NCBI GenBank assembly: GCA_025964695.1
Contig: JAOPYK010000072.1
Span: 1 to 64,000 of the forward strand
DNA from: Streptosporangiaceae bacterium
GTDB taxonomy: Bacteria; Actinomycetota; Actinomycetes; Streptosporangiales; Streptosporangiaceae
Direction of reading: 5' to 3'
Length of the DNA stretch: 64,000 bases
Of this stretch, positions 19,713 to 21,698 are shown piece by piece. The notes beneath the pieces were generated by a model. It was not told the DNA's origin, ran no database searches, and saw only the letters and a list, made by a program, of their open reading frames with translations. The number at the start of each line of letters is the position of its first letter. Position 1 is the first letter of the stretch. A program made the position numbers and the translations under genes.

Positions 19713-19733
19713 CTGGATAGCGTCAGTATCCAG
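19713..19733. promoter_or_regulatory. Proximal 21-bp palindrome, candidate MerR operator
   Basis: CTGGATA-gcgtcag-TATCCAG is a perfect 7-bp dyad with a 7-bp centre, 15 bases upstream of the merR start codon. Confidence 0.65.
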
Positions 19734-19743
19734 CTCGTGGCCG

Positions 19744-19764
19744 CTGGATGCCGAAGAAATCCAG
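19744..19764. promoter_or_regulatory. Distal 21-bp palindrome, candidate MerR operator
   Basis: CTGGAT-gccgaagaa-ATCCAG repeats the dyad of the proximal site with the same total length. Start-to-start distance is 31 bp, close to three helical turns, so both sites face the same side of the DNA. Confidence 0.6.
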
Positions 19765-19930
19765 TGAGTGTCCGCCGTCAACCGACGGCCATGGTGTCGA
19801 AGACGCCCCGGCCGGGTCTCCTGAAAGCCGCTCCGGAATCGCGGTCGTTCGGCTACGGTCGGTGACACAAACGTCCATTGCGTGCGGAGCCAGGCCTGAT
19901 GTCCGGCATCGGTGAAGGACGGGTCATTCG

Positions 19931-20374
19931 GTGAACCTCTTTCGTGGGCGGTTGGTGGGTCTCGGGGTCGCGCTCGCGGCCCGTACCGGGTTCACCAGCC
20001 TCACCGTGACCGGCCGGGCGGAGACTGGCGCGCAGGCCGGGTCGTGCCCCGCTCCGGCCGGGCCTGGCGGCCCCGCCGAGGACACGGTGGCCGGTGCGAT
20101 GTCCGCGCTGTTCGTCAGGCATTTCGCCGGCGATTTCGTGGCCGTCGAAATGCTCCTGCGGAAGGGGCGATTCACCCGGGATCAACTGGTCGCAGTGCTG
20201 CGTGAGCGGGATCCGGGGTACGACCCGTACCACTTCGTGCGGGCGCTGGCCGAGCTGCCGAAGATCCCCGATGAGCAACTCCGGCCGTACGGCCTCGACG
20301 ACGACGAGATCGCGGTGGTGCGGGCGCGATTCGCCGACTGGTTCCATGCCCTCATCGGTGACGCGATCGCCTGA
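19931..20374 (+). CDS. Small protein of unknown family, paralogue A
   Basis: The 147-aa protein is not one I recognise. From about residue 53 its core reads VAGAMSALF, then GDFVAVEMLLRKGRFTRDQLV, RERDPGYD, LAELPKIPDEQL and EIAVVRARFADWF. That is a predicted all-helical unit of about 90 residues. The next gene encodes the same core with about half of the residues identical and no gap. The N-terminal 50 residues are hydrophobic, then Gly/Pro/Ala-rich, and shared by nothing nearby. The start is a GTG behind AAGGACG. The shared core shows selection for protein sequence, so the gene is real. Confidence 0.7.
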   Translation: MNLFRGRLVGLGVALAARTGFTSLTVTGRAETGAQAGSCPAPAGPGGPAEDTVAGAMSALFVRHFAGDFVAVEMLLRKGRFTRDQLVAVLRERDPGYDPYHFVRALAELPKIPDEQLRPYGLDDDEIAVVRARFADWFHALIGDAIA

Positions 20375-20616
20375 CCGCCTCGTCGCCAGCACGGCTCCGC
20401 GGTCCCTTCCGCCGATTCACGGGGGGTTTCGGGAAAACCGTCCGCGCCCTGTCACCGATTCGCTACGTTGAGTGGCGCGGTACGTCCCGTATCACCAGGG
20501 TTCACCGTCCAAGCCGCTCCCGGAGTCCGGGCCGCTTCGGACCGTCCGTGTCACGGCCGCATCCATGGCGGAGCCATGCCCGGGTCGGGCTGTGGCCAGT
20601 GGCGGGACGGTCCTCG

Positions 20617-20979
20617 ATGAACCATGTCAGTGATTCCGGCGATGACCCCCGGCGTGCGCACGACCCGGGCGACCCAGGCGACCCGGGCGTGGCGGGCCGG
20701 ATGTCGAGGCTCTTCGACCGGGGCCGCCCGCAGGACTTCGTGGCGATCGGGTCGGTGCTCGGCGAGGGGCGCTACACGCGGGAGCGGCTTGTCGAGCTGC
20801 TGTGCGCACGTGACCCCCGCTGCGACGCCTTCTTCTTCGCGGGGGTGCTTGCCGAGCTGCCGCTGCTGCCCGACGAGCAGTTCACGGCGCTGGGGCTAGG
20901 CGACCTGGAGATCGCGATCCTGCGCGCCCGGTTCGCCGACTGGTACCGCAGCATCCTCGACAGCGGGCCGCCGGGCTGA
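20617..20979 (+). CDS. Small protein of unknown family, paralogue B
   Basis: The 120-aa protein has a 27-residue Asp/Pro/Gly linker (DDPRRAHDPGDPGDPG) followed by VAGRMSRLF, QDFVAIGSVLGEGRYTRERLV, CARDPRCD, LAELPLLPDEQF and EIAILRARFADWY. The core aligns end to end with paralogue A, 242 bases upstream. ATG 20617 is chosen because it directly precedes the linker and has GGGACGG upstream; an ATG at 20548 is in frame. The stop codon lies two bases from the stop of convergent ndgR. Function unknown; no catalytic motif is visible. Confidence 0.7.
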   Translation: MNHVSDSGDDPRRAHDPGDPGDPGVAGRMSRLFDRGRPQDFVAIGSVLGEGRYTRERLVELLCARDPRCDAFFFAGVLAELPLLPDEQFTALGLGDLEIAILRARFADWYRSILDSGPPG

Positions 20980-20981
20980 GG

Positions 20982-21698
20982 TCAGGTCGCCCGCCGCATC
21001 GACTCGGACACCTTCTCGGCGGCGGCGGCCAGCGGGGCGGCGTGCATCCGGCCGGGGGACCGGGTCAACCGCTCGAGCGGGCCGGAGACCGAGATCGCCG
21101 CGATCACCCGTCCGCCGGCACCACGGATCGGGGCGGAGACCGAGCCAACGCCCTGCTCGCGCTCGCCCACGCTCTGGGCCCAGCCCCGGCGGCGTACCGA
21201 GGCCAGGGTGGCCGCGGTGAACTTGGCGCCGCGCAGGCCGCGGTGCAGCCGGTCCGGCTCCTCCCACGCGAGCAGGATCTGTGCCGCGGAACCCGCGGTC
21301 ATGGGAAGCGCCGCGCCGACCGGTACGGTGTCGCGCAGCCCGCTGGCCCGCTCCGCCGCGGCCACGCACACGCGGACGTCTCCCTGCCGCCGGTAGAGCT
21401 GTGCGCTCTCCCCGGTCATGTCGCGCAACTGCGTCAGGATGGGCTGGGCGATGGCCAGCAGCCGGTCCTCGCCCGCCGCCACGGCCAGCTCGGCCAGCCG
21501 CGGCCCCAGGATGAACCTGCCCTGGGTGTCCCGGTGTACGAGGCGATGGTGCTCCAGCGCGACGGCGAGCCGATGAGCGGTCGGCCGGGCCAGACCGGTC
21601 GTCTGGACGAGCTGAGCGAGCGACGCGGGACCGGCCTCCAGCGCATTGAGTACGAGAACCGCTTTGTCAAGTACGCCGACTCCGCTAGAGTTGTCCAT
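20982..21698 (-). CDS. ndgR: IclR-family regulator of leucine biosynthesis (NdgR/AreB-like)
   Basis: The 238-aa protein has an N-terminal helix-turn-helix (SLAQLVQTTGLARPTAHRLAV, in pieces, about residues 26-46) and the IclR effector domain (about 75-235) with GSAAQILLAWEEP and the turn SVSAPIRGAGG. It is divergent from leuC, the position of ndgR/areB in Streptomyces, whose product binds upstream of leuCD and responds to amino-acid status. Orientation and family make the assignment strong. Regulation of leuCD here is inferred from that knowledge and from the dyad at 21714-21728. Confidence 0.88.
   Translation of the reverse strand: MDNSSGVGVLDKAVLVLNALEAGPASLAQLVQTTGLARPTAHRLAVALEHHRLVHRDTQGRFILGPRLAELAVAAGEDRLLAIAQPILTQLRDMTGESAQLYRRQGDVRVCVAAAERASGLRDTVPVGAALPMTAGSAAQILLAWEEPDRLHRGLRGAKFTAATLASVRRRGWAQSVGEREQGVGSVSAPIRGAGGRVIAAISVSGPLERLTRSPGRMHAAPLAAAAEKVSESMRRAT

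Follow-up and report, generated by a model that had tools for sequence, protein, structure and literature searches.

Two small genes beside ndgR in a Streptosporangiaceae bacterium are probably reduced, catalysis-dead tails of an AbiEii/MenT-type nucleotidyltransferase

What are the two small, adjacent genes that lie between a MerR gene and ndgR in a 64,000-nucleotide stretch of a Streptosporangiaceae contig (hereafter the window), and what could their products do? An earlier note, made from the sequence, had described them as neighbouring paralogues with an ungapped core of 89 residues, 47 of them identical, and we reproduced exactly this count in the best ungapped 89-residue alignment of the two proteins, for which BLASTP reported 50 identities over 98 ungapped positions (E 4e-31). 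Both frames are supported as coding, with third-position GC high inside them and a clear drop in between. The neighbours that had been claimed are also present. A MerR gene (Pfam MerR_1) lies on the minus strand on one flank, with twin dyads beside it, and the other flank carries ndgR, which encodes an IclR-type regulator, followed by leuC, leuD and HU; a SAM hydroxide adenosyltransferase gene is also found near the pair. The features on which the analysis turns are the following.

19713-19764 (19713-19733 and 19744-19764), no strand: two MerR-type dyads, CTGGAT-N9-ATCCAG, read from the sequence.
19931-20374, plus strand: gene 1, GTG start, 147 amino acids; apparent AbiEii-type nucleotidyltransferase (NTase) C-terminal domain with the catalytic core deleted.
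20087-20353, plus strand: gene 1 copy of the 89-residue core (residues 53-141).
20617-20979, plus strand: gene 2, ATG start, 120 amino acids; stand-alone C-terminal domain with same-site orthologues in five other genomes.
20689-20955, plus strand: gene 2 copy of the 89-residue core (residues 25-113), with six predicted helices.
20982-21698, minus strand: ndgR, convergent with gene 2 and a marker of the conserved site; given for context, outside the proposed mechanism.

Direct searches with the window proteins gave no significant match in Pfam, NCBIfam or PADLOC, nor among PDB sequences, for which gene 2 only was searched. Neither protein matched the Pfam AbiEii profile itself at E values up to 10, whereas the full-length relatives do. 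Foldseek with the model of stand-alone gene 2 alone returned nothing at E ≤ 0.001, and Foldseek and VIA-align with this model gave weak helical matches only, the best being AerR (Z 5.5). The identity of the core emerged from the relatives. A third homologue in the window's own genome, a 228-residue protein on contig C73, is an AbiEii NTase (PF08843, E 1e-15), and the core of gene 1 and gene 2 aligns to its C-terminal ~95 residues. A profile of the seven stand-alone proteins matched that of 29 full-length relatives with an hhalign probability of 99.7 (E 1.4e-26, 103 columns). The AlphaFold model of gene 2 consists of six helices (mean pLDDT 84.7), in keeping with the all-helical fold proposed earlier, and these correspond to the last six helices of the model of a full-length NTase (pLDDT 96.3), whose best PDB matches were H. 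pylori JHP933 and MenT3 and MenT4, two of the tRNA NTase toxins of M. tuberculosis. As judged from these alignments and models, the shared core represents the helical domain at the C-terminal end of an AbiEii (DUF1814, PF08843) nucleotidyltransferase of actinobacteria, a known domain that is recognisable in an unusual reduced form. The earlier note had called the family unrecognised and had said that its reading would fall if a characterised family was clearly matched; for the domain, there is such a match.

Given this parentage, the catalytic motifs of the family provide a direct comparison. Motifs I to IV have been defined as hG[G/S]...DhD, a motif III lysine and a motif IV +DxxD (PMC3985639). 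Motifs I and II, which belong to the Pol-beta NTase fold, are absent from the open frames and from the alignments of all seven stand-alone copies. The position of motifs III and IV is shared with AbiEii, and six of the seven proteins still have the motif III arginine (K+7); however, the motif III lysine and the motif IV R-D-x-x-D, present in 29/29 full-length proteins, occur in 0/7 stand-alone ones. The lysine, the motif IV arginine and the second aspartate are replaced in every stand-alone protein; just five alignment columns are nearly invariant among full-length proteins yet replaced in the stand-alone set, and these residues account for three of them. Mutants of motifs III and IV in AbiEii are non-toxic (PMC3985639), and alanine mutants of MenT1 K137 and D152 lose toxicity (PMC10435456). 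The lysine-to-aspartate spacing of the full-length relatives, 15, equals that of MenT1 K137/D152, whereas the window proteins have neither the catalytic lobe nor these two positions, which are essential in MenT1. Because the GG...DxD half is missing and the motif III lysine and the motif IV arginine and aspartate are replaced, nucleotide transfer by the window proteins should be impossible, and the absence of a catalytic motif noted earlier is borne out.

Where did the two genes come from? In genome G002, from a sister genus, the same site is occupied by a full-length NTase of 210 amino acids (L103:3385-4014; PF08843, E 7e-10), tail-to-tail with ndgR-leuC-leuD and with a SAM hydroxide adenosyltransferase gene on its other side. 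Its catalytic motifs are intact, which sets it apart from the window genes, and the C-domains of gene 1 and gene 2 are 48% and 45% identical to it, respectively. Beyond the chromosomal site, it shares leader blocks with gene 2 and the first helix with gene 1, as located below.

19854-19859, plus strand: TACGGT, -10-like element of gene 1, read from the sequence; the block is conserved upstream of the paralogue and the orthologues.
19931-19993, plus strand: first 21 residues of gene 1, MNLFRGRLVGLGVALAARTGF, a putative remnant of NTase helix 1.
20464-20616, plus strand: leader of gene 2, with a -10-like TACGTT and the blocks CGCGGTACGTC and CACGGCCGC...GGGACGGTC.

The blocks of the gene 2 leader are common to gene 2, its orthologues and the full-length G002 NTase. 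A promoter and terminator scan found no consensus promoter and no terminator, and an Rfam search of the window locus and five orthologous loci gave nothing close to gathering score. Over six sequences, RNAalifold folded the leader at -7.6 kcal/mol with next to no contribution from covariation, and we therefore claim no structured RNA. Upstream, a frame of 23 codons (20565-20633) runs over the start of gene 2 and has a counterpart in G001.

The 21 N-terminal residues of gene 1 match the N-terminus of the G002 enzyme, MSPFQRRLTRLGLKVLSRRGF, at 9/21 positions (BLASTP), and the score of this match was reached by 0/20000 position-locked shuffles; the match to the family profile is weaker, with 8 of ~4800 scored shuffles as high. 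Since gene 1 appears to retain the parental helix 1, an internal deletion is indicated, and gene 1 resembles an NTase from which most of the sequence between helix 1 and the C-domain, GG...DxD included, has been lost. The N-termini of the two genes had been described as different and of low complexity, and this holds for them as sequence; the idea of one module attached to variable tails does not, as the tail of gene 1 would be what is left of helix 1 of the enzyme. A sister relationship between the G002 NTase and the stand-alone clade is neither supported nor rejected by the tree (p-AU 0.53), so that descent in place rests on the shared site, the leader and helix 1. The origin of both genes from a full-length AbiEii/MenT-type NTase is well supported.

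The seven stand-alone copies form one clade (support 96/98), spread over six genomes of three genera, all at the same ndgR site and with a single copy in each genome except the window's, which has two. The frames are thus not missing from close relatives, the other outcome that the earlier note had regarded as damaging, and the copy-number survey, with one copy at the site in the other genomes, does not fit the modular system of many tandem copies that it had envisaged. With gene 2 alone as query, a scan across named genomes gave no match; the alignment-based query recovered the five orthologues, Actinomadura alba among them. No further members of the clade turned up when 395 genomes of the class were scanned, and the known distribution is small, at six genomes. 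Gene 1 is an early-branching duplicate present only in the window's genome. A recent tandem duplication was considered and rejected, with gene 1 and gene 2 as sisters excluded at p-AU 0.0016, which leaves either an old duplication whose second copy was lost elsewhere or fast divergence of gene 1.

Are these genes then maintained, or are they decaying pseudogenes, that is, C-terminal leftovers of a dead NTase whose frames stay open by chance in GC-rich DNA? The loss of the catalytic residues would fit decay, and breakage of full-length NTase copies is frequent in this bacterial family, with frames split by stops or shifts (L078, L079, L081-L085); in L086, an in-frame internal deletion joins helix 1 to the C-terminal part, much as in gene 1. 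However, none of the seven copies across three genera contains an internal stop, whereas stop codons arose in 39-74% of neutral simulations, and in 5/5 pairs tested the amino-acid identity exceeded that of all 2000 neutral simulations. In contrast to the clade, the broken copies examined still have catalytic residues and fragments of the NTase in other frames. The stand-alone clade is under purifying selection, and we consider decay an unlikely account of it. Gene 1 has one feature that would fit decay: where the other six copies are unanimous, its differences fall evenly over the codon positions (9/43, 13/58 and 5/24), a count that cannot tell the branch of gene 1 from the stem shared by those six. 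Relaxed evolution would give such a pattern, and the branch of gene 1 may be under relaxed constraint.

A maintained domain might serve as an RNA-binding protein that retains the face with which the parent enzyme docked on tRNA. MenT relatives use tRNA as their substrate (PMC10435456), and the C-terminal part lies near the active site; yet the stand-alone cores are acidic, with net charges of -1 to -8, and six of the seven proteins contain no lysine, which together speak against RNA binding and make this reading rather improbable. The missing lysine may be of interest in its own right where lysine is tagged (pupylation).

Alternatively, the domain could act as an antitoxin or decoy that binds the partner or the target of full-length AbiEii NTases and thereby neutralises or tunes them. 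The domain copies half of such an enzyme, and the window's genome does carry the C73 NTase together with a partner gene. Elsewhere, a gene for a protein of ~93 amino acids almost always precedes full-length NTases of this group. This protein, which belongs to no Pfam family, is a candidate antitoxin (L003:2133-2411 and ~40 other loci). The window locus differs from AbiE-type toxin-antitoxin pairs in having no bicistron with the 93-residue partner, for which no significant match was found there, the neighbours being MerR and ndgR, both on the minus strand. Moreover, four of the six genomes with a stand-alone gene (G001, G021, G075 and G076, some assemblies being incomplete) have neither a PF08843 match nor the partner; G075 alone of the four holds a relative from another AbiEii subfamily. 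Action as an antitoxin or decoy is thus unlikely to be what these genes do in general, and we regard it as very doubtful overall.

The twin dyads beside MerR likely reflect MerR autoregulation; they do not evidently belong to the stand-alone genes, and similar dyads occur in G001. The MerR gene is divergent from the stand-alone gene in three genomes and co-directional with it in two, and it was found neither near the stand-alone gene in G076 nor near the NTase in G002. As this arrangement is not conserved, MerR was set aside as a functional partner. The proposal that the protein regulates or assists the leucine genes (ndgR-leuCD) or the MerR gene has the lowest probability of all, since adjacency to ndgR is conserved in 6/6 genomes but the gene is convergent to ndgR and has a promoter-like block of its own, relatives without it still have ndgR-leuC, and the placement of MerR varies.

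The best explanation overall, and in our view the probable one, is that both genes encode the reduced, catalysis-dead tail of an NTase, kept as a non-catalytic binding protein. A full-length AbiEii/MenT-type NTase at the locus would be the ancestor of both; its N-terminal nucleotidyltransferase half would have been lost, in gene 1 through an internal deletion, with the six-helix C-terminal domain remaining. Purifying selection has kept this domain in the form of a small, acidic protein made of helices, which would dock, without catalysis, on a protein partner once touched by the parent enzyme. Retention of the tail at a single chromosomal position in several genera of actinobacteria makes an independent, non-enzymatic function probable. 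The binding or adaptor role suggested in the earlier note is plausible, and protein binding by the stand-alone domain is the possibility that we favour, if tentatively; LAELP and RARFADW, among the most conserved segments of the clade, are candidate contact sites.

The reduction at the ndgR site has a parallel. A second AbiEii lineage that consists of the C-domain only lies beside a GntR gene (L080:1549-1944 in G184 and L033:5328-5732 in G026). Its proteins resemble those of the window in having no partner gene and a replaced motif III lysine, here by arginine, but they belong to a different AbiEii subfamily and a different locus, which marks a separate reduction. Other matches in the same search lie mostly inside longer open frames, and several of those examined have the NTase motif. 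It is conceivable, although we would not yet favour it, that the C-lobe of AbiEii/MenT enzymes has a binding function of its own, selectable after the enzyme is lost, and that at least two independent reductions took place in one bacterial family.

AbiEii/MenT enzymes are widespread NTases of phage defence and toxin-antitoxin systems, and research on them has, to our knowledge, centred on catalysis; a limited literature search found no report of a comparable case. In the present case both the catalytic half and the catalytic residues have disappeared, yet what remains has been conserved at a single locus in several genera. Should this be confirmed, the C-terminal lobe would have a separable interaction, perhaps the recognition of the target or of the antitoxin, and nature would have supplied a 90-residue variant with which to look for it. 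If true, it would also point to a class of non-catalytic proteins derived from defence toxins.
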